A stretch of 64,000 bases of DNA from the NCBI GenBank assembly GCA_002085155.1, contig NASX01000016.1, forward strand, positions 7,264 to 71,263, in the 5' to 3' direction. Numbering within the stretch: the stretch's first letter is position 1; each line of letters begins with the position of its first letter. The notes below the pieces were generated by a model that ran no database searches, was not told the DNA's origin, and saw only the letters and a program-made list of their open reading frames with translations. The stretch comes from Sorangiineae bacterium NIC37A_2 (lineage in GTDB: Bacteria > Myxococcota_A > Polyangia > Polyangiales > Polyangiaceae). Positions 1 through 16,300 of the stretch are shown in pieces. Position numbers and translations under genes: made by a program.

Positions 1-970
1 GAGTTATGTGGCGAAGAAGGGCAGTCCTTCCTATCCGCTCAGCTCGGAGGTCTTCGTCGGGGGGCTTCCCCAGGGTTTTTCGATGTCCTTCCAGGCGTTC
101 CGGCTCCCCCGCACGTCGGCAAGCTTCGACGCTCCTCCCGAAGACGTCGCCGTCGGACCCGAGGGAGACACCGCAGCCGCCTTCCTCAGCCACAGCCGAA
201 AGCAGTACGTTTTCCGGAACACCACCGCGAGCGGAGTCGTAGCTGGCTTTCTTTCTCCGCTCGCTGCCGGAAAAGAAAGAGCTGGCGTGCTAATCGGATT
301 TCCGAACGGGATCTACTGGGAAGAAGCGCGCCACTTCGGCCGTACCTCACTGATCACCTTCTCTGATTTCATTGAAGAGACTTCGGTCGGTTGGTTCGGA
401 CAAGACGCGATGGTCGCGATCGGTCTGACCTACACGAAGCACGACGTCGGTTGGGGCGCTTGGAGGATCGCCGCTCCTCCCGATCGGGAAGACGTTAGTC
501 TCATTCGCGTCGCCCGCCTCGAGGCCGATCGAGCTCCTCAGTTCTTCGAGCTTGCCATCGGCGTCACCGACTTCGCAGAGGGCGGAGGCATCGCTATCGG
601 TGATGACGAGAGCTTCGGGGTCGTCCTCTGGGCTCAGCGTTTCCCCCATAAATCTCAAGTCCGCTTCGCGGTCATCCAGGACGGCCTCCTCTTCGAGAAG
701 GCCTCCTTCGATCTCCCGACGGAAGCCTCCTGCCGCGTGAGCTCACCCATGTTCGCCCAGAGAGCGCTTCGTTTCCTCGCTTCCGCTCACTGCTCGGACG
801 GGAGCGCTTACCTGTTTGGTATGGACTGGTTTTGGCCCCTTCCGGGCAAAGTTGCGAGCCTCCCCGCCGTCGCCATCAACGAAGACGGCTCGATCGGTCT
901 CGCCCTTTGGACGGAAGAAGACGGGCAGAACGGGGACTATCTCATTCAGACGCGCACCCTGGTTTGGTGA
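1..970 (+). CDS. ACGARS-family lipoprotein, copy 1 (5' end outside window)
   Basis: This is the 3' part of a gene whose start lies left of the window. The reading frame is open from base 2, and the first visible residues (SYVAKKGSPSYPLSSEVF) align with the middle of the two complete downstream paralogues, so the GTG at base 8 is internal. The protein shares with them the blocks SSEVF-GGLP, QYVFRN, WGAWRI, a Gly-rich EGGGIAI stretch, SCRVSSP, SAHCSDGSAYLFG and a terminal QTRTLVW. The paralogues carry an N-terminal lipobox, so this copy is probably also a surface lipoprotein. Function unknown. It is the first of four tandem same-strand copies and its TGA is about 97 bases before the next start. 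Confidence 0.75.
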   Translation, partial: SYVAKKGSPSYPLSSEVFVGGLPQGFSMSFQAFRLPRTSASFDAPPEDVAVGPEGDTAAAFLSHSRKQYVFRNTTASGVVAGFLSPLAAGKERAGVLIGFPNGIYWEEARHFGRTSLITFSDFIEETSVGWFGQDAMVAIGLTYTKHDVGWGAWRIAAPPDREDVSLIRVARLEADRAPQFFELAIGVTDFAEGGGIAIGDDESFGVVLWAQRFPHKSQVRFAVIQDGLLFEKASFDLPTEASCRVSSPMFAQRALRFLASAHCSDGSAYLFGMDWFWPLPGKVASLPAVAINEDGSIGLALWTEEDGQNGDYLIQTRTLVW

Positions 971-1067
971 TTCATCGACGCGTCAAATCCCGGACCGGCC
1001 GCGGGCGGCGGTGAGCCTCTCGTGAGGATCACGGGACGGGCGGTTCGTCTCGTGCTACGAGGCGGCC

Positions 1068-2585
1068 ATGGCCATGCGGTGGAGGGGGCTTACGGTGTCA
1101 CTTTTTGTGGTGGCTTGTGGAGCGCGGTCGAGTTTGCTGCTCGAGGATGGTCCGATCACCGCTGACGGAGATTCGGGTTCGGGCGCCTCGAAACCGGCCG
1201 GGGGCGGCGGCGCACCGGGAAGCGGCGCGTCGGCGAGCGTCGGAGCTGCGTCAGGCGTAGGGGGGGCAGCGGGCGGAGGAGGGAGGCCCGGGAGCGGGGG
1301 CGCACTTGCCGCGGGCGGAAGTGGATTGGGCGGAGGACCCTTTTCCACTGGGGGAAGGATCGATTTCGAGGATTACGAGCCCACCGTTACAGCCATCACT
1401 TATCCCGAGAGAGCCGCCTCGCCGGCGCTCGCCCTCGCGATATCGCCGAGCGGCGAAGCTGCGGTTGTCTTCTTCACCACCGAGAAGGGCCACGTGGGCC
1501 AGGCGCGGTGGCTCGGGGCGAGTTGGGAACCGGGTCTCGACGGAACCGACGATAGGGTCAGGACCGTAACGAACGCCTGGCTCTCGGAGGACGGATATCG
1601 TTCGTGGGTCAGCTATGAGTTTGCTCGCGGAAGCTCCCCCTATCCGCTCGGATCGGAGATCTTCTCTGGGGGGCTCCCCTTCGGAGTCACGACGTCGATC
1701 GAGGAGTTCCAGCTTCCGTACCGGCAGGTGAGCTTCGAGAAGCCTCCTCTCGAGGTTGTCCTCGATCGCTCCGGGGACACAGGCGCGGCGTTCCTCGACA
1801 CAAGCCGCTTTCAATACATGGTCCGGGACTGGAGCGTCCCGGGGTCGGACTCTTCATATGTCCTTCCCCATGTCATGGCTGCCCTCGAGGACTGCCCGAG
1901 CGCGCTCATCTCGCTGCGCGACCAGGTCCTCTGGGAGGATGCACGTTACGATGGGACCGGGATTACCCTTTCCCACATCCCCGTCGACGGCGCCTTCATG
2001 AGCAGACTCCCGCGCCATACCTTTGTCCCTTTCGGGCTCTCCTATTCGGCCAGTAGCAGCGTCTGGGGCGCCTGGAGGGTCGTCCCGCCCGCCAGCGACT
2101 CCTCCGAAGCGTTCATTCGATTCGGATTGCTCCGGACCGGCGGGGACCACCTGATCTGGGAGTTTCCGACGATACGCTCTCCTCGATTCATCGAAGGAGG
2201 AGGCCTCACAGTGAGTCGGGACGGAGAGGTCGCAGCGACCACTTGGGGGTACCGCTTGGCGAACGCATCGGCCGTCCGACTCGCATGGATCAAAAACTGG
2301 GTTTCGAACGAAGGGATCACCGTCCCCTTGGAGACGCCGTCCCTCTGCCGCGTGAGCGCACCTGCTCTCTCCGCAAGCGGTCACCGCCTCATCGCCTCCG
2401 CTCACTGCTCCGACGGACGCGCGTATCTGCTCGCTCCCAATTGGCAGCTCAGCCTGAGCGACTGGGCCGCCGATCTCCCGAAGATCGCTCTCAGCGATTC
2501 CGGCAACCAAGGGTTCGTCGCCTGGACCGAGTGGGTTCCAGGAGACTCGCGCTATCGCATCGAGACGCGCGTGCTCGTTTGGTAA
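1068..2585 (+). CDS. ACGARS-family lipoprotein, copy 2
   Basis: A 505-residue predicted lipoprotein. The N-terminus MAMRWRGLTVSLFVVACGA has a positive charge, a hydrophobic core and a lipobox (VVAC) placing the lipidated cysteine at residue 17. Residues about 40-100 are a Gly/Ala/Ser-rich linker that would hold the globular domain away from the membrane. The remaining 400 residues are rich in Trp and aromatic positions, and include two conserved cysteines in SLCRVSAP and SAHCSDGRAYLL that may form a disulfide. Most of its length aligns with the flanking copies. No enzymatic motif was recognised, and a repeated-strand (propeller-like) fold is only a guess. The ATG at 1068 was chosen because the M-x-(M/L)-R-W-R start is shared by the other copies. 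Confidence 0.8.
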   Translation: MAMRWRGLTVSLFVVACGARSSLLLEDGPITADGDSGSGASKPAGGGGAPGSGASASVGAASGVGGAAGGGGRPGSGGALAAGGSGLGGGPFSTGGRIDFEDYEPTVTAITYPERAASPALALAISPSGEAAVVFFTTEKGHVGQARWLGASWEPGLDGTDDRVRTVTNAWLSEDGYRSWVSYEFARGSSPYPLGSEIFSGGLPFGVTTSIEEFQLPYRQVSFEKPPLEVVLDRSGDTGAAFLDTSRFQYMVRDWSVPGSDSSYVLPHVMAALEDCPSALISLRDQVLWEDARYDGTGITLSHIPVDGAFMSRLPRHTFVPFGLSYSASSSVWGAWRVVPPASDSSEAFIRFGLLRTGGDHLIWEFPTIRSPRFIEGGGLTVSRDGEVAATTWGYRLANASAVRLAWIKNWVSNEGITVPLETPSLCRVSAPALSASGHRLIASAHCSDGRAYLLAPNWQLSLSDWAADLPKIALSDSGNQGFVAWTEWVPGDSRYRIETRVLVW

Positions 2586-2673
2586 GGCCGACTCGGTCAG
2601 CCAAAACGAAACCTAGAGCGCGCCCGCACTTGCAGGCGACACAAAAAGCTTGGTCTCACGACACTGACCATTC

Positions 2674-4224
2674 ATGGCTTTGCGGTGGAGGGCAATCGCT
2701 GTGTCGCTCTGGGCGGTCGCCTGCGGCGCTCGGTCGGGTTTGATTGTCGACGACAACTCGACGTTTTTTCCGGAGGGCCCCTCTGACCTCGGCGCGGGCG
2801 CCTCGAATCCTGGACAATCGGGAGGCGGAGGCGCGCCAGGCGCGGGGGCAGCTCCGAGCATCGGAGGCGCGCCAGGCGTCGGGGCGGCACCGGGTGTCGG
2901 GGCGGCACCGGACGTCGGTGGGGGTCCAAAAAGCGGCGGCCTGAGCGCCGGGGGGAGCGGAGCCAGTGAGCCGTGGACTCCGAGCCCCACGGGCGGAGGA
3001 CCAACCTTCGGCGACCACGAGCCCGAGGTCGTCGAACAGGGAACTTACCCTGAGCGCGCCCTGCTCCCCGACCTCGCGCTCGCGATGACCCGGAGCGGCG
3101 AAGCCGCCGTTCTCTTCTTCACGTCTGAGAGCGCTCACATTGGCCAAGGTCGTTGGTTCGGAGAAGAGTGGAAACCGGAACACGAAGGAACGGAGGTGGG
3201 CGTGCACGGGGTAAAGCGCGCCTGGATCCGAGAGGACGGGCTCCTTTCTTGGGTCAGTTATGCGGTGGAGAGCGGGACTCCTCCGCTCAGCTCTGAAGTT
3301 TTCTCGGGAGGTCTTCCGATGGGCTTTTCGACGTCCTTTGAAGAGTTCCGACTTCCGCTTGGTCCCGGGAATTTCGAGGCGCCGCCTTCGGACATCATCC
3401 TCGGCCCGAGCGGAAACGCGGTCGCCGCTGAGCTGAGCTCGCGCCAGTTTCAGTACACGGTCGACGACGTCAGCGCTTTGGGAGACGACCATGGTGCGCC
3501 TTGTGCTCTCGCCGCAGGCGAGACCGGCGTCAGCTCTCTCTATTCCGTCGGCGACCAGCTCCTCTGGGATGACGCGCGTTACGACGGCGACCTCTTCCTC
3601 CACCCGACTCGAGTCGATGGCGCTGCCCAGGGCGAACCTGATCGCGTCTTTCTCCCGGTTGGCCTCGCTTACACGGACGACGATGTCGCCTGGGGCGCGT
3701 GGAAAGTCGTCGAACCAGGCAATACCGCCACCTTCCCCTATCTCAGAGCCGGCGAACTCTCGCCCGATGGCGATCACGAGCTCTGGGACTTGTACGTGGT
3801 GTCCGCGGCACCTTTTGCGTACGGGGGAGGGCTCGCGGTAACGCCTGACGGCAATACCGCGGTCGTCCTCTGGGGCTATCTCCCGAGCACGCAGGCCTCG
3901 CCAGCGGGCTCTCATGCCCGGATGGCGTGGATCAAAGACAACCTGCTCATCGAGGGCACCACCCACGATTTCCTTACGACCTCCTCCTGCCGCATTGGTC
4001 CCCCATCACTCGCTGGCAGCGGGGAACAGGTCATCGCTTCAGCTCACTGCTCGGACGGCAGCGGCTTCCTGTTTGGGCTCGACTGGCTCGTGCGACTCCC
4101 GGGGAAGGTCGCGGGCCTCCCGGCTGTCGCTATCGACGAATCCGGCGCGGTCGCGCTCGCCGCCTGGACCGAGCGCGACGCCTCAGAGCGCTATCGTATC
4201 CACACACGAACTCTCCGTTGGTAA
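2674..4224 (+). CDS. ACGARS-family lipoprotein, copy 3
   Basis: A 516-residue paralogue of the preceding gene. The N-terminus MALRWRAIAVSLWAVACGA gives a lipidated Cys17. Residues about 40-105 form a Gly/Ala/Pro/Val linker built of short repeats (GAAPGVGAAPDVGG-like), which is the part that differs most between copies in length and sequence. The C-terminal domain keeps the shared blocks SSEVFSGGLPMG, LLWDDARYDG, WGAWKVV, SSCRIGPP, SAHCSDGSGFLFG and a final HTRTLRW. The bases just before its start (CACGACACT then ATTCATGG) recur before copy 4, so the duplication unit includes upstream sequence. Role unknown; probably outer-membrane or surface exposed. Confidence 0.8.
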   Translation: MALRWRAIAVSLWAVACGARSGLIVDDNSTFFPEGPSDLGAGASNPGQSGGGGAPGAGAAPSIGGAPGVGAAPGVGAAPDVGGGPKSGGLSAGGSGASEPWTPSPTGGGPTFGDHEPEVVEQGTYPERALLPDLALAMTRSGEAAVLFFTSESAHIGQGRWFGEEWKPEHEGTEVGVHGVKRAWIREDGLLSWVSYAVESGTPPLSSEVFSGGLPMGFSTSFEEFRLPLGPGNFEAPPSDIILGPSGNAVAAELSSRQFQYTVDDVSALGDDHGAPCALAAGETGVSSLYSVGDQLLWDDARYDGDLFLHPTRVDGAAQGEPDRVFLPVGLAYTDDDVAWGAWKVVEPGNTATFPYLRAGELSPDGDHELWDLYVVSAAPFAYGGGLAVTPDGNTAVVLWGYLPSTQASPAGSHARMAWIKDNLLIEGTTHDFLTTSSCRIGPPSLAGSGEQVIASAHCSDGSGFLFGLDWLVRLPGKVAGLPAVAIDESGAVALAAWTERDASERYRIHTRTLRW

Positions 4225-4318
4225 GCCCGGGGCGATGCTCCTCTGGTCAGGCCGGGTAGGATGAGCTCCGCGTGAGAATCGTGCGACGAAAAGCGCCGTC
4301 CCACGACACTATCGATTC

Positions 4319-5221
4319 ATGGTGTTGCGGTGGAGGGGGCTCGCGGTGTTGCTCTTAGCGGCGGCTTGTGGAGCTCGCTCAGAATTGCTGCTCGATGATG
4401 AGCCGACTTTTTCCCCGACGGACCCTCTGACCTCGGCTCAGGCGCCTCAAAACCCGGACGATCGGGGGGCGGAAGCTCGCCGGGCGCCGGAGGGGCACCT
4501 GGAGTCGGCGCAGGGCCCAGTAGCGGCGGCGGCATGAGCGTCGGCGGAAGCGGCACGGGAGGTGAGCCGGAGGTTCCGTTGGGCTCCGGAGGAGCGCCTG
4601 ACCTCAGCGACAACGAACCAAAAATCGCGCGCGCGGAGTATCCGGTGCCCGCCAGCTCACGCTGCTCGCGCTCGGCGACGACAAGGTCGTCTGGGAGAAG
4701 GCGTGCTTCGACGGCACTAACGTGAGCCCTCCCGCCTCCGTCTTGGTGGACGGCGCTGAGCCGAGCGGGCTCGCGCACCACACCTTCGCTCCTCTCGGGC
4801 TGGCCTATGGCAGCGGCGACATCGCCTGGGGCGCGTGACGAGTCGTCCCACCCATGGACGAGTCCACCCCAGGATTCCTGGGGCTATGAACTCTCGAACG
4901 AGTCGCAGGGCCGACTCGCCTGGATCAAGGATGGAGTCACGAGCGAAGGGCCCACCTTCCTCTTCGACTCACCGTCCCTCTGTCGCATGAGCGCACCTGT
5001 CCTCTCCGCCAGCGGCCATCGTGTCCTCGGCTCGGTTCGTTGTTCGGACGGCACCGCGTACTTGTTCGGTGAAACCTGGGCCTGGAGAGGTCCCGGTGCG
5101 ATCGCCGACCTTCCCGCTGTCGCTCTGAACGAATCCGGCTCCCTCGGACTCGCCGCTTGGACGGAAGGCAGTGGCCAGGGCGGGGCACTATCTCATTCGG
5201 ACGGCGGAGCTCGTTTGGTGA
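4319..5221 (+). pseudogene. Decayed copy 4 of the ACGARS lipoprotein family
   Basis: The start MVLRWRGLAVLLLAAACGA is intact, but the gene is broken in several ways. Around 4408-4416, at a T-run/C-run, the frame shifts: the Gly-rich linker continues in the other frame as GPSDLGSGASKPGRSGG and leads into MSVGGSGTGGEPEVP. After YPVPAS (about 4650) roughly 200 codons are missing compared with copies 2 and 3. The next block LVDGAEPSGLAHHTFAPLG ends in IAWGA followed by TGA where the paralogues have TGG (Trp). After that stop, RVVPP and then WGYELSNES, RLAWIKDG, SLCRMSAP and VRCSDGTAYLFG follow, with a further deletion. The last codons GHYLIRTAELVW and TGA lie in a different frame from the body. 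Not expected to give a full protein. Confidence 0.85.
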
Positions 5222-5261
5222 AGTCCCAGCTCCCACGAGCTGTGAAGTCCCAGTCCCACGA
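5219..5261 (+). repeat. Two-copy direct repeat after the pseudogene
   Basis: TGAAGTCCCAGCTCCCACGA followed at once by TGAAGTCCCAGTCCCACGA. The first copy begins at the stop codon of the decayed lipoprotein gene. It is a small local duplication with no evident function. Confidence 0.6.
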
Positions 5262-5365
5262 GCGTGCGCCACTCGGCGAGTCGGACACGCTCGGACTGCG
5301 TCGGTCACCCTTGAGCGCCCGGAAACCTAAGGCGCGGACCCAGAGGGCGTTCGTGCGCCCGATCG

Positions 5366-6364
5366 TTACTCCTCCGGCGAAGGCTCCGCCGCGGGAGGCG
5401 GAGCGGGCGCGGGAGGCGCTTCTTCCTCGTCATGGGGAGTCGCCGGCGACGCGGCAGGCGCGGTAGCCCGGGGCGCAGCTGAGCGCACGGCGGTCTGTTT
5501 CGGAGCTTTCGCCTTCGCTGCGATCGCCTTGTCGAGCTCTTCTTTCAGCTCGGCGAGCTCAGCGTCCTTCTTGTCGAGCTCGGAGCGAAGAGAAGCGAGC
5601 TCGCTCGTTTCTTGTTCGGTGTCTTTGATCTCCTGATCGACGCGCCGCCGTTCTCCATCGACCCACAGGCGCAGACCGAGATCGCTCTTCGCGAGCTGAC
5701 CTTCGACGAAGCTCAAGATCTCCTTCCGCCTCTCCGGAGAGCTCTCACCTCCGTAGTAGGTCTTCATGACCTCTTCGCGAATGTTCGCGCGGGTGCGCGC
5801 CTCGGCGGAGGTCCCGGAGAAATAGCCGATTGCGCCGCCGGCCGCCGCGAAGGCGAGGAGCAGGAGCGTTCCCCGAATGATGAGTCCGCGGCCGGTCGCT
5901 TGAGCGATCTTTGAGAGCTCCGTGTTCACTTCGCGCAGGCGCGTCTCGAGGAGCATCTGGAGCCCGTCGAAGCCCATGTTGATGAGCGGGGGGCTCACGC
6001 GCATCTCGGAGTCAGAACCCGGAGCGTGACTCGGGCGCGGCGGAGAGAGGGAAGTTTTCTCCGGAGGGTGTGGCGGATTGTGGCTCGGGCGCGGTGGCGG
6101 ATTGTGAGAGGAGGTCCTGGGCGCAACTTTTGGTGTGCCGAGCGAGGGCGTCGGTTCCTCTTCTTCTGGTTCGAGGAGCTCTCCTTCAAGGCTCTCCGGT
6201 GGACGATCGTCGTCGAGGAGCGTCACACGCCTTGTGCTCAACGCTTCGACGTCCGCTGCACTCCCGAGGGGGTCCGTCGGCCGAAGCTCCCTCACATCCG
6301 ATTGACCAAACTCGCCCGTCCCCGTCTGATTCGCCGCGACCCGTCCCTTGGATTCCATCGTCAT
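5366..6364 (-). CDS. Single-pass membrane protein with coiled coil
   Basis: A 332-residue protein of unknown function. Residues 1-125 are acidic, then Pro/His/Ser-rich and probably disordered, with the short repeat SHNPPPRPSHNPP near residue 90. One membrane segment (LIIRGTLLLLAFAAAGGAIG) lies at about 161-183. After it, residues about 235-290 (TEQETSELASLRSELDKKDA and onward) form a strongly heptad-patterned coiled coil. The tail is Ala/Pro/Glu-rich. The arrangement suggests an inner-membrane anchor with a disordered cytoplasmic part and a coiled-coil part on the other side. The gene faces the decayed lipoprotein copy convergently and diverges from the barrel gene at 6642. The start ATGACGATGGAA at 6364 is preferred as the first Met in frame. 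Confidence 0.65.
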   Translation of the reverse strand: MTMESKGRVAANQTGTGEFGQSDVRELRPTDPLGSAADVEALSTRRVTLLDDDRPPESLEGELLEPEEEEPTPSLGTPKVAPRTSSHNPPPRPSHNPPHPPEKTSLSPPRPSHAPGSDSEMRVSPPLINMGFDGLQMLLETRLREVNTELSKIAQATGRGLIIRGTLLLLAFAAAGGAIGYFSGTSAEARTRANIREEVMKTYYGGESSPERRKEILSFVEGQLAKSDLGLRLWVDGERRRVDQEIKDTEQETSELASLRSELDKKDAELAELKEELDKAIAAKAKAPKQTAVRSAAPRATAPAASPATPHDEEEAPPAPAPPPAAEPSPEE

Positions 6365-6641
6365 CCCCGTCCCCGCTGACGCCTAGTTGTCCCTCCTACT
6401 CTACCAAAGTCCTCGCCTTTCCGCCTCTGGCTCAGCTCAAAAATACGCGGCGCTCACGGGCGCACCCGAAACGCTTCGGCCGCGGAGCGGGAACGCGGGT
6501 CGAAGTGCCCGAGACTCCTCGAACAAACACATAGGGCTGTTTCTCTCCCCGTCTCACGGCGAAAACTTGTGACGCGGCCCCCGAGGATGGTAGCGATGTG
6601 AGGGGGCGCCACCGAAGGAGCCCTATTTCCAGGGGAACATC
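6365..6641. other. Divergent intergenic region
   Basis: These 277 bases separate the membrane coiled-coil gene from the barrel gene and must hold both promoters. I found no convincing -35/-10 pair, operator or RNA structure. A purine-rich stretch AGGGGAAC sits just before the ATG at 6642. Confidence 0.4.
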
Positions 6642-7523
6642 ATGACATTACGTACAGCAGCCTTCGCCGCGGCCCTCCTCGCTTTGGGACCGGCAACGGC
6701 CCACGCACAGGCCCGCAATACCTTCTCAGCGCCCACCGGCGAGCTCGGAGCCAACCTGAGCACCGATCCGACCCAAATCTCCCGCATGCACGGGGAGCTC
6801 TCCTTCTATACAGGCAGCCAGGGAAACGTGACGGGGAACGCTCTCGTGCTCCAGGTCGGCGGCGGTGTGAAGGTCACACGGAACCTCGAGATCGCCGGCG
6901 GGGTCACCGGGCACGGATTCATCCAGTCCCAGAACGGGGTCACGACCGACCGGTTCGCTTTTGGCAACCTCTTGCTCGGGGTGAACTACGTTCGCGCCAT
7001 CAACCCCCAGTTTCGTTTCAAGGTCGGCGGCTTCCTCGGCTTCGGTCCCTGGAACTACCAAAACAATCAGTCCACAACCGAAGGCTTCGTTCAGAACATC
7101 ACCGGTCTCGCCACGCACGCGTTTCAGGACCTCTGGTACCACACGCCAAACCTCGTCCACCTGGTCGTCCCCGCGCGCCTCGAGTACGACGTCACGTCCT
7201 CTTTCGTCCTAACGGGCGACGCTCAAGCAGATCTCGGCATCGGTCTCGGCAACAGTAGCACTGGTTTTCTCTTCATCTTCGCGCCAGGCGCCGCCTACTG
7301 GGCCAGCGACAGCTTCTCCCTCGGTTTGCGCCTCCCGCTCCAGTTCCAGAGCTTCGGCGGCGACGGCACGCAGGTCTCCCTCGAGCCCTACGCGCGCTTC
7401 GAGCTCGGCGAAACGGGCTTCCTGTCCACGCGCTTCACCTTGAACCTCGACGACCCCTACGGTTTCTCCTTCGACACTGGGAAAGTCTGGGGCCTTCACG
7501 TCGCTCTCGGCGGGCACTTCTAA
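6642..7523 (+). CDS. Outer-membrane beta-barrel-like protein
   Basis: A 293-residue secreted protein with a clear signal peptide (MTLRTAAFAAALLALGPATA, cleaved after about AHA-QA). The mature part is a series of amphipathic strands with alternating hydrophobic residues and turns: ALVLQVGGGVKVTRNLEIAG, FRFKVGGFLGFGPWNY, NLVHLVVPARLEYDV, GFLFIFAPGAAYW, SLGLRLPLQFQSFGG. It ends in an aromatic (GGHF), as expected for an outer-membrane barrel. Family and substrate are not recognised. The RBS AGGGGAAC precedes the ATG. A broken paralogue lies at about 32200-32830 on the other strand, so this is a small duplicated family in this genome. Confidence 0.65.
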   Translation: MTLRTAAFAAALLALGPATAHAQARNTFSAPTGELGANLSTDPTQISRMHGELSFYTGSQGNVTGNALVLQVGGGVKVTRNLEIAGGVTGHGFIQSQNGVTTDRFAFGNLLLGVNYVRAINPQFRFKVGGFLGFGPWNYQNNQSTTEGFVQNITGLATHAFQDLWYHTPNLVHLVVPARLEYDVTSSFVLTGDAQADLGIGLGNSSTGFLFIFAPGAAYWASDSFSLGLRLPLQFQSFGGDGTQVSLEPYARFELGETGFLSTRFTLNLDDPYGFSFDTGKVWGLHVALGGHF

Positions 7524-7845
7524 CGGTTCACATCCCGCGCCCTCCGCCAGAGCGCGCGACAGGGCGCCTGAGTCCGCCCGCCGCGGCACTTCGACCTTAC
7601 GCCCCAGCGCGATCCACTTCGACCGGCTCCTCTCCGAGTCCGGCCGAAAACATTTTGTGTGCGGCGCTCTTGAGAGAGCACCCCGTGCTTCATCCGCTGC
7701 GCCGGTGAGCCTCGTGAGAGCGTCCCTCGTCGCGAGCGAACGGTCGACGAACCAAACGATGAACGGCGCGGCGAGGGCAAGGCCCAGGGCGACGGACGCG
7801 ACCGACTCGAGGCCGATCAGGCGGCCGCGGAGCCGCGTGGCACGC
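7524..7845. other. Convergent intergenic region containing a gene fragment
   Basis: These 322 bases lie between the barrel gene and the 276-residue lipoprotein gene. Bases 7695-7829 are a displaced copy of an MFS 3' end (listed separately). I see nothing else: no T-tailed terminator and no complete small gene. Confidence 0.5.
7695..7829 (-). pseudogene. Orphan fragment of an MFS transporter C-terminus
   Basis: On the minus strand this stretch reads RGRLIGLESVASVALGLALA, then APFIVWFVDRSLATRDALTR and LTGAA. This is almost identical to the last 45 residues of the intact MFS gene at 11279-12511 (RGRLIGLDYVAYVALGLALA, APVVVWFVDRSLATRDALTR, LTSATG). The match stops abruptly at both ends and there is no start codon of its own, so it is a remnant of a duplicated or deleted transporter. 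Confidence 0.8.
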
Positions 7846-8676
7846 TCACAGGCCCAGCCAAGCCGCTGTGTCCACCCGGCCGAGGACAAGGTCAGCTGTG
7901 ATGTCGCCGCCGTACATGTCGCCGAGGGGCATGTCGCTAAGGTTCTTGAGATCTGCTGAAATTCGAATCTGAGTCGGCTCTGTCCCAGGGCAGGTAAAGA
8001 CGAGCGTATCCGTGCCTTCCTCTTCCTTGAGCAGTTCAGCCTCCTTCAGAACGCATTCGAGCGCCCGACTCCCAGAATGCAGCGCGACTACCTCGCCTGG
8101 CTTCCGTTGGTCCCTCACCCGACCAGAAAACTGGACCGTCACCTCGTAACCGCCAGGCGCAGGTTTCGAAGTCACTTTCTGAACGAGGAGCTTCGAGTCG
8201 AGCGCGACCCGCGTCATGAGAGCGCCTGGGCGCTTCTTTGTCGTCTCCCGTAATCCGGTCAGCAGGCGGGTCGGCACCCGACTCAGATCGAGGCTCGTCG
8301 CCAGAAAGCCTTTTTCTAGCGGCGTCTTCAGGAGAACGAGGAAATTGTGCACTACCGGACTCCCCAATCCGCCACCCTCGACCCGGACTTCGAAGTCGAC
8401 CGGGGCAGCATCGGGCCACGTCGTCAGGGAGAGACTCGATTGGATGGCGTTGATTTCGTCTTGAGACAGCTTCTCTCTCGAATAGAGGCTCGCCGCGATC
8501 GGCCCACGAACTCCTGTCGACAGGTCCTCCGGTCCGAAGAACAACTTGCTTTCCTGCTCCTCTTGAGAATTCTCTCCCCGCCGAGCGGAGCTCGACGGAA
8601 TGTCCTGCGCGCTCTCGTCACACCCGAGCGCGACCATAGCGAGGCAGGCGATGAATGCGGCTCGATAGAGCTTCAC
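7846..8676 (-). CDS. Predicted lipoprotein, last gene of protease operon
   Basis: A 276-residue protein starting MKLYRAAFIACLAMVALGC, with the lipobox (ALGC) putting the lipidated cysteine at residue 19. The mature part begins with a disordered Ser/Glu-rich stretch. Its later region contains EVTVQFSGRVRDQRKPGEVV and two cysteines (ALECVL, FTCPG) that could pair. No known domain was recognised. The start is GTG at 8676, overlapping the stop of the upstream gene as GTGA, which implies translational coupling. In general character it resembles its upstream neighbour (strand-rich lipoprotein with two late cysteines), so the two may be distant paralogues. Confidence 0.7.
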   Translation of the reverse strand: MKLYRAAFIACLAMVALGCDESAQDIPSSSARRGENSQEEQESKLFFGPEDLSTGVRGPIAASLYSREKLSQDEINAIQSSLSLTTWPDAAPVDFEVRVEGGGLGSPVVHNFLVLLKTPLEKGFLATSLDLSRVPTRLLTGLRETTKKRPGALMTRVALDSKLLVQKVTSKPAPGGYEVTVQFSGRVRDQRKPGEVVALHSGSRALECVLKEAELLKEEEGTDTLVFTCPGTEPTQIRISADLKNLSDMPLGDMYGGDITADLVLGRVDTAAWLGL

Positions 8677-9656
8677 GGCGCTTTCTCCTGTGCCTTCGGA
8701 ACGCCCGCCTGCTCGAGCAGAGAATTCTTATCGGCTTCACGCGGAGTTGCTGGTTCCTTCGGATCGGGACCAGGAAGCATCACCTCGATTGTGACGTCCT
8801 CGTCCCCGGAAAGAGAGTAGGACTCTGCGAGCGAAGCGCCGGCACTGCTCTTGATCGATGACTTGATGCGAATCTTGAGGGCCTCTCCTAAGGATGGGCA
8901 TTCCAGCAGCAACCCTTTGAGCGCTGGCCCTGGCATTCCCTCGAAGTTCCAGCTTGGTTTGCAAGCTATAGTCTCCGCCGCCTCTGACTCAACTTCAACG
9001 ACGTTACGAAGCGCCATTGGAGCGTCGGACAAGCTCCCAAACTCCACTTCTTCACTCAATGTGATCCCCAAGAGGTCATTGCCTTTCTCTCGAGGCGGAG
9101 CTCCGCTCGTCTTCCCATCATCATCTTCAACCACTCGCGTCGCGTAAACTGAAACTACTATCGGTCGCGACACCGGTGAGTAAACGACTGGCGGACCAAC
9201 ATGGCCCGCGCCACCGAATTCCTTCGGCATCTTGGCCGCGTCGAGCACAACCGCTTCCCAGGAGCCGGAGGGTTCACCTTCTCGTTCGAATGCGATCTGG
9301 TTCGGAGCCCCCTCCGGAGTCGTCCATTTCCCTGGAACGACTTTTCCCGACGGCCATTCCACGACACTCGCAAGCTTCACCGCAACTTCTCGCAGCTCTT
9401 CGTCGGGAACGGTACGCTTACTCAGATCGAATGAAGGGGAGGGCCACGAAATAATGGGCTTATCATTATAGTTCGTCACAAGCCCCGGCCCTGGTGCTCC
9501 CACACTGATAAACGTGCTCGGTTCAGTATGGAATGGCGCGACCTCATTCTTCGACTCACACCCAAGAAGTAGCAAACCTAACGCAGCCAAAAGGCAAGAG
9601 CGGCTACCGCTCCACGGAGCCTTCTTTGTTACGCCAGAAAAAGAGTCAGTTCTCAT
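8673..9656 (-). CDS. Predicted lipoprotein in protease operon
   Basis: A 327-residue protein with a long N-region and a lipobox LLLLGC (lipidated Cys33, after SCLLAALGLL). The mature protein is strand-rich, with two cysteines near its C-terminal half (TIACKPSW, LLLECPSLG). It reads like an extracellular adhesive or Ig-like domain, but no family was recognised. The start overlaps the end of the metalloprotease gene by 11 bases and its stop overlaps the next lipoprotein start by 4, so the three genes are very likely one transcript. A role as partner or anchor of the protease is inference from position only. Confidence 0.7.
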   Translation of the reverse strand: MRTDSFSGVTKKAPWSGSRSCLLAALGLLLLGCESKNEVAPFHTEPSTFISVGAPGPGLVTNYNDKPIISWPSPSFDLSKRTVPDEELREVAVKLASVVEWPSGKVVPGKWTTPEGAPNQIAFEREGEPSGSWEAVVLDAAKMPKEFGGAGHVGPPVVYSPVSRPIVVSVYATRVVEDDDGKTSGAPPREKGNDLLGITLSEEVEFGSLSDAPMALRNVVEVESEAAETIACKPSWNFEGMPGPALKGLLLECPSLGEALKIRIKSSIKSSAGASLAESYSLSGDEDVTIEVMLPGPDPKEPATPREADKNSLLEQAGVPKAQEKAP

Positions 9657-11163
9657 AAGCTCTCCCGATATCTTGCCTAAGGGTGAAACCCTGGGGCACG
9701 TACGCCATGTTCTGTTGAACGAGAGGAATCAGTCCGTTGAAAGGAGTGGACGGCGACCACCTCTGCCAAGCGCTCGTGGGATCGGCCGCAATATTCTGCG
9801 GCCCACAGGTAATCCCGTTCGGACCACGAATGCGGTCGATATTCTGGTAAGAGGTCGCCGTGTATTCCGGCAGCGATCGATGGTTGAGACTATTGCAGAG
9901 TGAGTTGGTGTTATTGTACTGCATATCCATGATCGAGTGGGCGCAAAGCATTGTCTGATGCGCGCAGCCAGAAACTGGTTCGGCGTACTCATCGGGGAGA
10001 CCGAGAAGCGCGTGACCGAACTCGTGCGCGAGAACGCGAGCCGGGCCGTACCAAGCGTCAATTTCGGCCGCACCACCGCTCTTGAGACGGGTGACGTCTT
10101 CCCCGCATAAGTAAACCTTGCCGTTCTGAGCGTAGGAGCGACTACACGAGGAACTGAGACAGACGTCACACGAGCCACCTTGAGGTCCATCGCACCCGAA
10201 TTGAGGTTCGGTGTGACACAGATCGTTTCTATAGAACACGTAGGAGGTGATGATGCGCGTACCCTCGGTCGCGCCGTAGAGCCGCCAGGCGGCGCTCTTA
10301 AATCCGTACGTGATCCCAACAAACTCGGTCGCACTGGGGAAACCGGGAATTCCGACGCGCAGATTATTGATGATTTGACTCTCCCGATGCGCGTGAGCCG
10401 TGAGGTGAATGACAGCCGCGGGAGCACCAGGCTCGGAGGCGATGCTCACAAACCGTTCGCTGGTGCAATTATCCGTGGAACGGATGAACACAGGAACGTT
10501 AGTTCCAAAGTATCGACGCTGATGATAATCAGTCGCGTTCGGCAAAGCGCCGCAGCGGAGCCAGACTGAAAATTTGCCGGCGTTAGGGCTTGTCGGATTC
10601 TCGAGCCACGCTTCGATCGTCACGCCTTCTGACGTCGTTCGCACAGGCAAACGAAGGTTCACCACCGTTCCACCAGGATTGAGTAGAATCATGCCTCTAT
10701 CGAAGGGCTGGAAAAGAGGCGGCGACGTGTCACCGATCGTGGAGCTGAAGTTCGCGCGGAGCGTCGTCATGACGACTCCACGCGCCTCGCTTTCTACTCC
10801 TATCGTAGTCGGCGACGGCCCCGAGACGAATCGGAAGCTTATCCCAGGGTTCATCATCGATCGATTCCCCGATTGAGCAACATCAATGAACGCCGGCAAG
10901 GCCCCGTTTGGGTATGTGCCACCCGTGACGGTAGTCCACGATCCAGGCCAACCCATCGTAATGAAGTCCCCGGTATCCCCAGGGAAGAGCCCGCCGGTCA
11001 TCGTGATTCGTCCCGAACGAGCGTAAGGGGACGAGAAGAAGTACAATCGACGATCCTGCGACGCAGCATACCGCCTGTTCGCTTCCGGCGCCGTCGGCGA
11101 GCGGTCCAGCGTTCGTCCTCCGTCCTGCATCCATTCTTTGAACGAATCGAAGCTGACCGGCAT
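9646..11163 (-). CDS. Zinc metallopeptidase, HEFGH-GLPDEY type
   Basis: A 505-residue protein whose C-terminal third carries HEFGHALLGLPDEY. HExxH (His380 and His384, with Glu381 as catalytic base) is followed by GLPDEY, resembling IgA-peptidase-like M64 and other zincin families. Near it are several cysteines (CDGPQGGSCDVCLSSSCS, GCAHQTMLCAHS), typical of a secreted, disulfide-bonded enzyme. The first 250 residues are strand-rich. I cannot see a signal peptide after the ATG at 11163, and that start has no good RBS. The frame is open further upstream, so the true start is uncertain and export may use another route. First gene of a three-gene operon. Confidence 0.7.
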   Translation of the reverse strand: MPVSFDSFKEWMQDGGRTLDRSPTAPEANRRYAASQDRRLYFFSSPYARSGRITMTGGLFPGDTGDFITMGWPGSWTTVTGGTYPNGALPAFIDVAQSGNRSMMNPGISFRFVSGPSPTTIGVESEARGVVMTTLRANFSSTIGDTSPPLFQPFDRGMILLNPGGTVVNLRLPVRTTSEGVTIEAWLENPTSPNAGKFSVWLRCGALPNATDYHQRRYFGTNVPVFIRSTDNCTSERFVSIASEPGAPAAVIHLTAHAHRESQIINNLRVGIPGFPSATEFVGITYGFKSAAWRLYGATEGTRIITSYVFYRNDLCHTEPQFGCDGPQGGSCDVCLSSSCSRSYAQNGKVYLCGEDVTRLKSGGAAEIDAWYGPARVLAHEFGHALLGLPDEYAEPVSGCAHQTMLCAHSIMDMQYNNTNSLCNSLNHRSLPEYTATSYQNIDRIRGPNGITCGPQNIAADPTSAWQRWSPSTPFNGLIPLVQQNMAYVPQGFTLRQDIGRAYEN

Positions 11164-11278
11164 CGCCAGCGGCTGATTTTTATTTGACCCGAGCTCGCAT
11201 TCGGCCCACGGGTCAGTACGTCCGAGTCGAAGAATTCTCGCGCCCCTGACGGCGCGCTCACGGCGGGACCCTCGAACT

Positions 11279-12511
11279 CTACCCCGTCGCGCTGGTGAGC
11301 CTTGTGAGAGCGTCCCTCGTCGCGAGCGAGCGGTCGACGAACCAGACGACGACAGGGGCGGCCAGGGCGAGGCCGAGGGCGACGTAAGCGACGTAGTCGA
11401 GGCCGATCAGGCGGCCGCGGGGATCGGCGGCGAGGAAGGCGGAGCTCATGAAGGCGCCGGCGGCGGAGGCGAAATGTTGGACCGCGGACTGAGCCGACAT
11501 GAAGCGGGCGCGGGCGGCGGGTTCAGGGACGCGCGTCGACAGCGTCTGGAGCGGGACCATGCGCGAGCTTCCCGAGACCATGAACACCGAGAAGACGAAC
11601 AAGATCGGTAGCGATTGGCTCGGGTGGATGAAGCCGAAGACCAGGGCGAAGGCGTGAAGGAGCGTACCGAAGGCGAAGACGCTCACGGCTCCGAAGCGGT
11701 CGACGGCCCGTCCCACAAGACGCACAGCGATGAAACTCGCGATACCTCCGACGAGGTAGAGGGTACCGAGGAGCTCGCGGGGATAACCGAGGTTGAACTC
11801 GACGAAGGTCGCGATGTTCGGGACGATCGAGAACACTCCGAGCATCACGATGCCCATGCCGCCGAGACAGAGGAGAGAGCTCGGTGAGAGGAGAGAACCG
11901 CCTCGGCCTGTTTTTTCTCGAGGGCGCTCTAAATGAGCGCGGAGCTCGGGCAACATGACGCGCGCGGCGAGCGTCACGAGGAGTCCGAGAGCCGCGACCG
12001 CAAAAAAGGGCGCGCGGAAGTTGAAGAGACGCGAGAGCTCGAGGCCCGCGGGCACACCGAGCACGGACGCGACGGCGAACGAGCTCCCGACGACGCCGAG
12101 GGCTTTGCCGCGGCGCTCCGTGGGGACCGTATCGGTCACGATGGCCAAGGCGACGGAGGTAGCGGGCCCTCCGAACACTCCCGCGAGCACACGAGCGGCG
12201 AGGAGCGACGCGAGATTGAAGGCGAAGCCGCCGAGGGCTGTCGCGAGGGCGAGCCCGGTCATGAGCCAGGTGAAGACTTTTCGGCGCTCGAAGCGGTCGA
12301 GGAAGAACGAGCCAGCGACGCCCGAGAGAGCCGCCGCGAGGGTATAGGTCCCGCCCACTGCACCCATCATCGACGTTGGCACACCGAGCTCCCGAGCAAA
12401 GTCAGGACCCAGCGGCATCACCATCATGAAGTCGAGGATGTTCACGAACTGCACAGCAGCCACGATCAAGACGATGGAACGCTCGCGCGAAGAAAGGTTC
12501 GGCTGGGTCAT
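11279..12511 (-). CDS. MFS transporter (12-TM exporter type)
   Basis: A drug:H+ antiporter-like major facilitator of 410 residues in the cytoplasmic membrane. It has about 12 hydrophobic segments, the inter-helix 2-3 loop with FLDRFERRKV (motif A-like), and VTDTVPTERRGKALG after helix 4. FVNILDFMMVMPLGPDF in helix 1 is typical of the AraJ/YdhP group. The ATG at 12511 (MTQPNLSSRERS) is preferred over the ATG 45 bases upstream, because the extra 15 residues are Pro/Gly-rich and precede the usual start. Substrate unknown. Its final 45 codons are duplicated at 7695-7829. Confidence 0.85.
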   Translation of the reverse strand: MTQPNLSSRERSIVLIVAAVQFVNILDFMMVMPLGPDFARELGVPTSMMGAVGGTYTLAAALSGVAGSFFLDRFERRKVFTWLMTGLALATALGGFAFNLASLLAARVLAGVFGGPATSVALAIVTDTVPTERRGKALGVVGSSFAVASVLGVPAGLELSRLFNFRAPFFAVAALGLLVTLAARVMLPELRAHLERPREKTGRGGSLLSPSSLLCLGGMGIVMLGVFSIVPNIATFVEFNLGYPRELLGTLYLVGGIASFIAVRLVGRAVDRFGAVSVFAFGTLLHAFALVFGFIHPSQSLPILFVFSVFMVSGSSRMVPLQTLSTRVPEPAARARFMSAQSAVQHFASAAGAFMSSAFLAADPRGRLIGLDYVAYVALGLALAAPVVVWFVDRSLATRDALTRLTSATG

Positions 12512-12692
12512 AGGGGTCGGCGCGCCGGGAACACCCGGGGCTCGGGGGAGGCACACTTCAGCATGACTCAGGCGTGAGCGCCCATGCCTCGGGGCACGCG
12601 GAAATCATTTTTCCCTCGGAGCGAACAGTTTCCGCGCCTCGCCAGTTCGGCGAAACTCCTTGCGCCCGGGGGCCGAGAGGGAAGAATAAACC

Positions 12693-13169
12693 GTGGCCAC
12701 CGAAATCGAGCGGAAGTTCCTCGTCGCAAAGGAAAACCTCGCGCGCATCCAGCCGGAGCGCAGCGTGCACATGCGGCAGGGGTACCTCTCCCGCGCACCG
12801 GGCCGCACCGTCCGCGTCCGCATCGAAGACGATCGGGCGTTTTTGACCATCAAGGGCCGCGCCTCGGGCCTCGCTCGACCGGAGTTCGAGTACGAAATCC
12901 CGCTCGCGGACGCGAGCGCGCTCCTCGAAATGGCGGACGGGCCTCTCGTCGAAAAGGTTCGCCATTACGTTCCTTTCGGGGGGCTCGTCTGGGAGGTGGA
13001 CGAGTTTTTTGGGGACAACGAAGGGCTCGTCGTCGCGGAGGTCGAGCTCTCCTGCGAGGACCAAGCGTTCGAAAAGCCCGATTTTGTAGGCGCTGAGGTC
13101 ACCAGCGATCCGCGTTATTTGAACTCGCGGCTCGCGGTCGAGCCCTATTCGACTTGGTCGAAGGCCTAA
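12693..13169 (+). CDS. CYTH-domain phosphohydrolase
   Basis: A 158-residue single-domain CYTH protein (the adenylate cyclase class IV / inorganic triphosphatase / thiamine triphosphatase superfamily). It begins with the signature MATEIERKFLV (E-x-E-x-K). It also has the strand motifs VRVRIEDDRAFLTIKG and PEFEYEIPL, and acidic/basic pairs around VWEVDEFFGDNEGLVVAEVE that line the metal- and triphosphate-binding tunnel. Known bacterial proteins of this size hydrolyse tripolyphosphate. The exact substrate here cannot be told from sequence. The start is GTG at 12693, fixed by the family N-terminus. Stand-alone gene, divergent from the MFS gene. Confidence 0.88.
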   Translation: MATEIERKFLVAKENLARIQPERSVHMRQGYLSRAPGRTVRVRIEDDRAFLTIKGRASGLARPEFEYEIPLADASALLEMADGPLVEKVRHYVPFGGLVWEVDEFFGDNEGLVVAEVELSCEDQAFEKPDFVGAEVTSDPRYLNSRLAVEPYSTWSKA

Positions 13170-13204
13170 CGGACGAAAGGACGCAGCGGCCCCTCGACGG
13201 GCCG

Positions 13205-13338
13205 AACCAAAAACGTTCCCGCGTCCGCCTGACTCCCACCGCGCGCGCTCCCTGATGTTCACGCGGAGCGCGCGCTCTGACGTTACCGCCTCCGCCACGC
13301 GGTGCGCGCGCTCTCTGAAAAACGTTACCGCGTCCGCC
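13205..13338. repeat. Imperfect repeats at the 3' end of the TPR gene
   Basis: ACGTTNCCGCSTCCGCC occurs at 13212, 13280 and 13322, interleaved with GCGCGCGCTC-(C/T)-CTGA-type segments. The copy at 13322 includes the stop codon and last codons of the minus-strand gene ending at 13325, so the array probably arose by repeated duplication of that gene's 3' end into the convergent gap after the CYTH gene. Confidence 0.6.
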
Positions 13339-16300
13339 GCACTCGCACCGCCCGCGCAAGAGCGCTGTCGGCGGCGCGCGTGTACTCCTGGAACTTCGGG
13401 TAACTCTCGACCTGAATGCGCCCGGCTTCGGTCACGACCCGCCGCTTCAGACGAACCGTCGAGGGTCCCGTCGCTCCGCTCGTATAGGCGTCTTCGATCT
13501 TGAAGAAGGAGCCCTTTTCTCCGAAAGCACCGGAGGTCGGATAGACCTCGGCGATGTAACCCGGGGGCAAGGTGACCCTGAGATCGAGGCCCTGTTCGAC
13601 ACGCTCTGCGATCAACAGAGGTGTCTTCCGTTCCGCGAGGGAGGTGAGCTGGGACAGGCGGGGCATGAACGGAGGACCGAGCAGCAGGACACCACCGGCC
13701 ATGGTCCCGAAATGGGGAACTTCGACTTCGACCTCGAGGATGAGCGGCTCGTCGAGAGCGTCCTTCTTCTTCACTTCGTGGCGCACGAGACGCGCGCCGC
13801 TCAGGTGTTGAGCGAGGAGTTGACTCTCGATGATGCCTGGGAGCTGATTCTCGGGGATCTCGGCGAGCCCCGCACGAAGGCTCGCGCCATACTTCCCTTC
13901 GAAGACAATTTCGAGGTGCAGCTCAGCGTCGCCGTTCTCTTTCAGCTCACCGGTGCCGCGGTAGGTGATGCTGTCGTCGATGCCCCCGAGGGGAATGGTG
14001 GCCTTTCCGAGCTGCCCACCGCCGAGGACATAGGCGTTTTGACCGCGCACGTGGGACGGAATCGTCCCGAAGGGCGCGTAGCGGTTGTCCATCGTCAGGT
14101 ATTCGACGTCCTTGCCCGAGCCGACGCGCAGCAGCGGGAACAAGGGACGCTCGAACTCGCTGATCGGCCCCCGCGGAGGCGAGGCAATCCGACTCTCCGC
14201 CATCACCCAAGCTACAGGAATGCCGAGAGCTTCACACAAGATCTCAAACCCGTTTTCGCGGCGGCCGTTCCGACTCACAACGACCTGACGACCGTCCTCG
14301 GTGGAACCCTCCTGCACGTTGTCCAGGATCCAGTGATACAGCTTCCGCGCTCGTTCGAGAGGCCGCTTTTCAGACACGCCTTCGACGATGCGCTCGGCGA
14401 TCCTCTTCACCCGCGGGTCGACCGGCGTGAGGGTGACTGCGCTCGCGCGCAGCGCGTCGAGACGCTCCGCAAACTCGAGACCCCAAGCTACGGTCACCCG
14501 CGGTAGGAATTCCGCCGTCGGAGGGCTATTGGGCTCAGAGACGTAAGCGGGGCTCCGATCGACCCGGAACCTCCGCACCACAAAGGGTCCCGCCTCGGTC
14601 ACGACGGGCTCCGGCGCGCCACCGGTCGCCTCCACGATGAGCGACTTGGCCTTCGGCGCGATCACCACGAACTCACTGCGCGCGTAGGCGATGCCTTCTT
14701 CGCGGAAGTTCCAGGTCGGACCCATGTAGCTGCTGCCGTCACCCCGACCCCAGTTCGAGAAGATGCGCTCCTGCTCGACGTAATCGCCGACCTCGAGGTG
14801 CGGCATGGTTTGAGTCGGTTTCCCGCGGACGCTCTCGGGCTCGAGAATGCGCCCGTCTTTCTTCAGGACCCGCAGCTTCAACGTCAGCCCCCCCACGTCC
14901 ATCTCAGCGAACTGGCGAATGGCCTCTTCGCTCTGGATGCGGACGATTTCGTGCTCGAGGAACTGGGACGAACCATCGGAGCGAACGAGCACAGCTCCGT
15001 AGTCGAGGACGCGCGCAGCAGTGCCGGCGAGCTCGGTGCCCTCGCGCTCGAACTCGGCGATGACCGCCTTGCCATCGAGGCGATAGGGCTCGAGAGCCGT
15101 CACGCCTTCCGCGAGATCGATCGCACTTTCGAGGAGGCTCGGATCGCCGCCCGCCTGGATTGCGGAGACGACCGCGCGCGCGAGCGCGCTCTTCTGACCC
15201 CGAGCGAGCTCGGCGTCCGCCAGCGCGAGGCGCGCGTGGATGTCCCGAGGCTCTCTCTCGACGGCGCGCTCGAGGCGCTGCCAAACCACACTTTCGTCAC
15301 CGGAGCGCTCCAGGAGCGCGTCGATCCGATCTTGGATGTCTTTGCGTTCGGGACGCCTGCTCAACAGGCGCTTCAGCTCACTCTTGGCGGTCTCGTAGTC
15401 GCGGCGGGAAAGGGCGCGCGAGAAGAGCACTTCCGTATCTGGGTCGGCCTTCTTGAGACGTTCGAGCAGCTCTTCGACCTTCTGATGATCGCCGCGCGCC
15501 TCCGCGACATCGATGGCGTACGTGAGCGCGTCGGGTTCCGTCGGGAACTTCTCGAGGATGCGCTGGACGGTGGCTTCGAACTCCGGGCCCCAGCCGAGCT
15601 CTTCGTAGAAGGCGGCCAACGTGAACTCGAGAGTGAGGACTTCGGGGAACTCCCTCGCCTGCTGTTCGAGCTTCGGGAGCGCGTGGACCTTTCCTTTCTG
15701 GTCTCCGAGCCAGAGCGCTGTCGCGTATCGGGGATACCAGAGGCCGCGGTCCCGCTGCTCTGCACGCACATAGAGCTCATGCATCAGATCGCGGGTCTGG
15801 GACTCGTCGAAGATCGGATCGCTCTCGACAAACCCGGCCGCCGTCATGAGAACTCCGCCGGTCGCCTTCTCAGGATCGCGCACCAGGGGCTCGAACAGGA
15901 CGGACGCGGCGTCCGGCGATCCTTCAAAATCGAGCAGGCTCGCGACGATGAAGCGCTCCGCCGGGCTCATCTCCTTTTCTTCCTGGAGCCCTTCCACGTA
16001 AGCCATGAGGTCATTCGGGTTCGGAAGGACCCGCGGCGGGACGCCGACGAATCCCGGCGCGAGAGCCGACGAGCGCACCGGGAGCGCTCGCCCATCCGGA
16101 CGAACCACACGCAGCGAAGTGCTCCCGGAGGAGAGCTTCCAGAGCACCCGGTGTTTGCCCGGACCGAGCTCCACGCGCACCCCAAAATCCGGCCAAACGC
16201 CGAACTTCCGCGGATCGCGATCGAGCACGAGGTGGTCATCGATCCAAACGCGGAAAGCGCCGCTCGCCGCGATGATCAAATCTTCGGTCTTCTCGAGCTC

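Follow-up and report, generated by a model that had tools for sequence, protein, structure and literature searches.

A decayed tandem array of putative beta-propeller lipoproteins in a Sorangiineae bacterium, and a seven-residue start that may act as a sorting address

Background

Several short protein-sorting signals described in bacteria can be compared with the start of a tandem gene family that we analysed in Sorangiineae bacterium NIC37A_2 (host genome 5.0 Mb, 150 contigs). The family lies at the beginning of a 64,000-nucleotide stretch, here called the window (positions 7264-71263 of contig NASX01000016.1, our C105), and reaches across its left edge into a region that we read as L009 (positions 1-14000 of the same contig). 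Its five related units stand on the forward strand in the order psi1-A-B-C-D, and the predicted lipoproteins share a start, CGAR[ST]x[LF], which we call the tag and number from the lipidated Cys as +1. Our overall reading, to which we give even weight, is that the array is an old family of propeller lipoproteins and that its tag is a sorting address.

Nearest in kind is the lipoprotein export signal (LES) of Bacteroidota, given for Capnocytophaga canimorsus as K-(D/E)2 or Q-A-(D/E)2 and first seen in silico, according to the available part of its description (PMC5080379). Like the LES, the tag is a short conserved stretch past the lipidated Cys on different lipoproteins; the LES is acidic, whereas the tag is basic and hydrophobic, with A to D all reading C-G-A-R-S, belongs to another phylum and marks few lipoproteins (2 of 162 in the sample described below). 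In Myxococcus xanthus, Lys at +2 is associated with the inner membrane and Ala at +7 with the matrix, with nothing conserved for the outer membrane, in the accessible portion of that study (PMC3222651). There, too, residues near the +1 Cys steer myxobacterial lipoproteins, but the tag has Gly at +2 and Leu or Phe at +7, which is Leu in A, B and C. Nearest in lineage is the MYXO-CTERM/myxosortase system of Myxococcota, a C-terminal, tripartite, Cys-containing sorting tag as outlined in the excerpt at hand (PMC11980579) and likewise a short Cys tag on different surface proteins of the same phylum. The array tag differs in belonging to an N-terminal lipobox. The three parts of the MYXO-CTERM signal, a Cys motif, a transmembrane helix and an Arg-rich end, are absent from the array proteins: read by eye, the intact copies finish in ...TR[TV]L[VR]W with no hydrophobic helix.

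Nearest in letters, in a comparison drawn largely from general background, is LptM, with a basic residue in position +4 of its start and Leu in position +7. In LptM, too, Gly follows the Cys, and LptM-like proteins generally extend for less than 70 residues past the motif, in the available text of the source (PMC10567701), whereas the tag proteins counted here have at least 100 residues by selection. The family PF13627 (LptM_cons) had no match above cut-off in 39 genomes; among the matches listed, one weak row (G029:C80, E 0.79) overlaps a tag. Literature searches with the strings CGARTGL and GARTGL, for such a tag by topic (judged from titles and abstracts) and for tandem paralogous lipoproteins of myxobacteria found no matching paper, most subscription journals lying outside their reach.

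Results

An old array that is decayed at both edges

The original prediction described four copies on one strand, one cut by the window (A), two intact (B and C) and one broken (D). All four were confirmed, and the leftward count that it called for added one more, psi1, so that the array has five units. A, B and C are intact, while psi1 and D are dead and occupy the two edges. The frame of psi1 is shifted by a 65-bp tandem duplication (98% matches), and D is reduced to pieces that lie in three frames (4319-4453, 4659-4880 and 4876-5184 by tblastn); compared with B, about 240 and about 40 residues are missing between the pieces, and a stop follows GLAYGSGDIAWGA. The kinship of the copies is far beyond chance, with E of 1e-124 for B and 3e-94 for A, each against C, and all nine matches in the host genome fall on the array contig. 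From psi1 to D the units are separated by 91, 97, 88 and 94 bases, and a scan of promoters and terminators returned 0 promoter-like and 8 terminator-like sites (0.4 and 4.7 in shuffles). The tandem duplication, decay and lipoprotein nature proposed at the outset are supported; the array is real, and it is a good but ordinary taxon-restricted paralogue cluster.

The expansion itself is old, and the intact copies are long diverged. Their domains are 46% (B-C), 44% (A-C) and 39% (A-B) identical, with ratios of nonsynonymous to synonymous substitution (dN/dS, NG86) of 0.38, 0.44 and 0.44 in the same order and a dS of 1.2-1.3, which is near saturation; a dN/dS of about 0.4 at this dS indicates copies that are old and constrained on average. 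The closest pair seen in the array is a fragment of psi1 and C (60% identity over 140 residues, against 37% for B and 34% for A), and the tail of D matches B slightly better (55%) than C (50%) or A (48%). The signal peptides are 41-65% identical. The linker had been named as the fastest-changing part, which holds for its length (gap columns: 39 in A-B, 51 in A-C, 12 in B-C) and fails for its aligned positions, which are 39-50% identical against 39-46% in the domain; within the domain, aligned identity is lowest in the central part. Similarly, the claim that the copies share the bases before the start codon stands for two pairs. The last 60 bases before the start fall into two leader types, with A-B and C-D alike (none of 500 letter shuffles reached their scores) and B-D weakly so (5 of 500), and no likeness was seen for A-C, A-D and B-C (483, 305 and 328 of 500).

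We found no clear conversion tracts. Clustering of shared differences gave a low value in one of 12 settings, for A-C at residues 465-489 of C (p about 0.002), and third positions alone gave a lowest p of 0.074, so that the conversion test is nearly negative. Conserved C-terminal blades fit the A-C cluster as well as an old conversion does. The substitution and conversion patterns that the original prediction wanted measured thus came out as purifying (dN/dS about 0.4) and without clear tracts.

As far as searched, in the collections and at the sensitivities used, the family is a lineage-specific orphan. A search of 38 relatives, two of the same genus, gave no member beyond one low-complexity match in G016 (L010, E 5.3e-5) that falls on a Gly-rich repeat region and was dismissed. 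A profile search of 376 other genomes of the phylum, which overlap in part with the 38, returned nothing convincing beyond one stretch in G058 (E 4.7e-4, 85 model positions), dismissed as weak. No relative appeared among the GTDB species genomes with the protein of a single copy as query, a search that reaches close relatives only, nor in the phages, plasmids and viral contigs searched.

Predicted lipidation and fold

The array proteins are predicted to be lipidated. A, B, C and D each begin with a charged start and a hydrophobic core, followed by a lipobox ending in Cys, as in MAMRWRGLTVSLFVVA-C; lipoproteins were called throughout by a simple in-house rule and not by a dedicated predictor, and the rule misses some, such as L012, which has Glu in the core.

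The domain is a predicted beta-propeller, a statement about fold and not about function. No Pfam family matched it, its two NCBIfam matches were both far below cut-off, and a sequence search of the PDB gave one match at E 0.18. AlphaFold2 models built with C or B as first sequence are mostly beta, with a predicted local distance difference test (pLDDT) of 66.7 and 72.1 and a predicted template modelling (pTM) score of 0.73 and 0.77, respectively, and are unreliable at residues about 86-163, which limits any count of blades, seven being the number considered. The top Foldseek rows for these models include several propellers at modest TM-scores (up to about 0.5), and the best VIA-align matches were CylK for the C model (Z 21.5, 324 residues, 4.7 A) and Rsa4 for the B model (Z 23.6, 302 residues, 3.6 A). 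The predicted fold is like that of Rsa4, ODA16, CylK and the BT3686 glycoside hydrolase, chains that we take to be propellers partly from general knowledge and partly from their titles; sequence identity to them is 6-13% in the listed alignments. The three intact copies all retain C439 and C459 (numbering of C), a pair compatible with a disulfide outside the cytoplasm.

The tag marks starts of unrelated lipoproteins

ACGARS had been taken as the mark of the array family, which is wrong, because the same start stands on unrelated lipoproteins. A pattern of A-C-G-A-R, then S, T and a few others, then x-[LF], matched 71 sites in 26 of 39 genomes. We read 56 distinct in-frame Ser/Thr sites (one such site, G026:C138, was left out), counting as positive those with a signal-peptide-like start and an open reading frame (ORF) of at least 100 residues. 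The tag was the start of a mature lipoprotein in 39 of the 56, or in 36 of 52 without the four array sites. For two motifs with the same residues in another order, the corresponding numbers were 0 of 19 and 0 of 19 (30 of 47 and 30 of 39 sites read, each with 19 in-frame Ser/Thr sites).

Beyond their first 12 residues, the 39 proteins fall into 25 groups at a BLAST E below 1e-5, of which 17 are singletons, with two weaker links between groups. The linkers also differ, being Asp/Ala/Pro-rich in many proteins and Gly-rich in the array. Ten tag proteins (nine of the 39 and L012) were compared with Pfam, where RCC1 (L027), MopE metal-binding (L045) and DUF4215 (L053, L100) scored above cut-off, and VWA, EGF (L012), PKD and a second MopE below it; two proteins had no match at all. 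A partly overlapping set of ten gave one NCBIfam match above cut-off, a cysteine-rich acidic repeat (L053).

Two observations concern repeated sites. At L080 (G004:C72), three CGARTGL lipoproteins stand in tandem about 1 kb apart, are 60-64% identical and belong to another BLAST group than the array. Contigs C16, C28, C73 and C189 of G029 hold repeated ACGRACxL sites at short distances, perhaps from a Cys-rich repeat protein family.

Occurrence and relaxed forms

The strict form of the tag, ACGARTG[LF], is concentrated in one order of Myxococcota. Among 377 genomes of the phylum it occurs in 10 of 35 genomes of the host family (the host counted, with no match of its own). Outside that family it was matched in 6 of 36 genomes of the same order; beyond the order, in 1 of 33 of the same class; and beyond the class, in 2 of 273. 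In total the strict pattern has 32 sites and its reversed control 8; 30 of the 32 were read, and 24 are lipoprotein starts by our rule, with 0 of 2 outside the class. Among at least 40 named records, 19 carry myxobacterial labels (Myxococcales, Myxococcota, Myxococcaceae, Polyangiaceae, Byssovorax, Sandaracinus, delta-proteobacteria), and 16 of these are lipoprotein starts by our rule, the other three standing at the head of long ORFs; the remaining 21 contain one lipoprotein start (Thermodesulfobacteriota). Three Erythrobacter records (L188, L199, L203) are short lipoprotein-like ORFs of LptM-like size, with 30-64 codons past the motif and the start CGARTGLxPV.

Relaxing the tag to CGxR[ST]x[LF] gave mostly noise and was abandoned, with no excess over the reversed control in eight of nine genomes (the exception, G000, had 21 against 11) and lipoprotein starts at 5 of 19 in-frame sites read in those nine. 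Outside the array, 2 of 17 relaxed sites read in the host genome are lipoprotein starts. Other contigs of the host carry lipoproteins starting with ACGARSPL (L012), CGGRTEF (L217) and CGTRSAL (L224), which show no likeness to the array proteins (best E 0.07) and continue into Gly/Ser/Ala-rich stretches, like the array linkers.

Coordinates and neighbouring genes

Table 1. Units of the array and their parts; plain positions refer to the window, and those with L009 to the contig.
Feature	Position	Strand	Basis or remark
psi1, 5'-truncated remnant, left of window	L009:6113-6747	+	host-genome search
Copy A, full, 464 aa	L009:6839-8233	+	one N at L009:7263, the base right before the window
Copy A, 3' part (lipoprotein domain)	1..970	+	5' part outside window at L009:6839-7263
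Copy B, intact, 505 aa	1068..2585	+	host-genome search; sequence
B signal peptide, 16 residues ahead of lipobox Cys	1068..1115	+	sequence
B tag CGARSSL	1116..1136	+	sequence, motif search
B linker, Gly/Ala-rich	1143..1376	+	sequence
B predicted beta-propeller domain	1377..2582	+	AlphaFold2 model, VIA-align
Copy C, intact, 516 aa	2674..4224	+	sequence
C tag CGARSGL	2722..2742	+	sequence, motif search
C linker, Gly/Ala/Pro-rich	2749..3018	+	sequence
C predicted beta-propeller domain	3019..4221	+	model; alignment
Copy D, pseudogene	4319..5221	+	tblastn
D tag CGARSEL, still readable	4367..4387	+	motif search

To the left of the window, an integron integrase lies near the contig end (L009:394-1446; TIGR02249, 430.7 bits, cut-off 265), with a GTTRRRY core, GTTAGGC, just ahead of it at L009:305; any cassette array would sit past the contig end. 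Because of this integrase we considered integron cassettes as the source of the array and dropped them, since shuffled sequence has more GTTRRRY cores on average (11.3) than the real one (4). An ORF at L009:1561-3354 contains a stretch rich in Gly and Ser as well as a sub-threshold match to a right-handed beta-helix, and is possibly another exported protein near the array. At L009:3418-4755 a 6-O-methylguanine methyltransferase DNA-binding domain and an HhH-GPD glycosylase domain share a single ORF, which seems to encode a fused repair protein. We looked for an empty site in sister genomes by way of the right-hand neighbour gene, but nothing in 25 other genomes matched it, which left no synteny to compare.

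Discussion

We propose that the array is an old, lineage-specific tandem family of lipid-anchored beta-propellers. Each copy would be made with a short signal peptide, whose removal and the lipidation that goes with it would take place at the Cys of A-C-G-A-R-S, and a Gly/Ala-rich tether of some 40-90 residues would carry the propeller. This domain would be displayed from the outer membrane (most likely) and outward (probably), where it may bind a ligand such as a glycan. The copies would have arisen by duplication of the gene with its leader; they have long diverged, and the array is decaying at its two ends. The seven residues with which the mature protein opens, CGAR[ST]x[LF], are shared with unrelated lipoproteins and would serve as an address for sorting, recognised at the mature N-terminus.

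Several points weigh against this proposal. Surface location on the outer membrane, ligand binding and a sorting role for the tag are what we infer, and the models contain poor stretches of up to 75 (C) and 66 (B) residues. The motif is no more frequent than its reversed control in the 39 genomes (71 sites against 76, the reversed pattern being compared by counts only); since 39 of 56 tag sites and none of 19 and 19 permuted sites are lipoprotein starts, its special feature is placement and not count. It is also rare: in 1.2 Mb of G024, from contigs chosen for holding a tag, 2 of 162 predicted lipoproteins carry it, in a sample where the rule missed a third known tag protein. When the CG starts of this sample were shuffled by column 2000 times, the mean was 0.13 tags and the maximum 2. 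The 39-genome scan found no strict match in the two other genomes of the genus, one of which carries CGSRSGL, a relaxed form, at the start of a lipoprotein (L340). Given this rarity and these two genomes, we rejected the tag as a general lipoprotein or outer-membrane signal. Pro at +10 is found in 19 of 62 tagged lipoproteins, mildly above its frequency in the lipoprotein sample (33 of 162), and Asp or Glu at +11 is frequent (27 of 62), in a set that is pattern-selected and partly related and in which several searches fixed Gly at +6.

The same rarity, together with the modular look of tag, linker and unrelated bodies, would be expected if the tag were a footprint of shuffling, in which a gene start comprising signal peptide, CGARTGL and linker was repeatedly fused to new bodies and the residues persisted by descent. 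Our search imposed the identities of the tag residues, so that codon diversity, placement and the permuted controls are what count for this question. The 62 tagged lipoproteins use all four GGN, GCN and CGN codons in the tag (Gly GGC/GGA/GGT/GGG 35/6/7/14; Arg CGC/CGG/CGA/CGT 45/10/5/2), and ahead of the Cys they have nothing in common beyond the Ala that the pattern requires. Varying residues before the Cys, diverse codons for constant mature residues, and differing linkers speak against descent from one mobile start, and we regard shuffling as unlikely, though still a serious contender. We assign the same standing to periplasm-facing propellers with a structural or assembly role, in a BamB-like position, whose tag would be the usual start of an outer-membrane lipoprotein. 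A Gly at +2 fits the ordinary route to the outer membrane, and beta-propellers occur in the periplasm. In our judgement, the long flexible linkers and the RCC1, MopE and DUF4215 domains (more weakly VWA and EGF) suit surface display better, and an ordinary start does not sit easily with the absence of lipoprotein starts among the permuted controls.

Two further alternatives concern what the copies do. The role in antigenic or kin-recognition diversity suggested by the original prediction could draw on presumed surface paralogues standing side by side and on the low aligned identity of the central domain. The net purifying selection, the nearly negative conversion test, the failure to find a homologous array elsewhere for comparison and the death of two of the five copies leave that suggestion unsupported, and we consider it improbable. 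Even less credible, to the point of being very improbable, is that the copies are SitA-like lipoprotein toxins passed on by outer membrane exchange. SitA genes come with a partner immunity gene, for which the spacing from A to D, of 97, 88 and 94 bases, leaves no room. In favour of the idea, myxobacterial SitA lipoproteins are polymorphic, as stated in the available part of the source (PMC8546572); against it, the C-terminal ends of the array proteins are conserved among copies.

Returning to the proposed sorting address, we tentatively extend it to a wider claim that is possible and, in our estimate, short of probable. CGAR[ST]x[LF] may be a dedicated basic N-terminal address that sends a few unrelated binding or sensing domains to the surface in Polyangiales-type myxobacteria. 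A translocon of the Lpt type would be a candidate reader, because the tag resembles the start of LptM. In Borrelia, an LptD homologue has been reported to move lipoproteins to the surface, according to the accessible part of a commentary (PMC13317210).

Little is understood of how myxobacteria select lipoproteins for surface display, and the published M. xanthus rules do not fit the array proteins. A seven-residue tag that stands at the start of unrelated lipoproteins, where permuted motifs are not so placed, would offer a concrete and easily testable candidate for such a choice.

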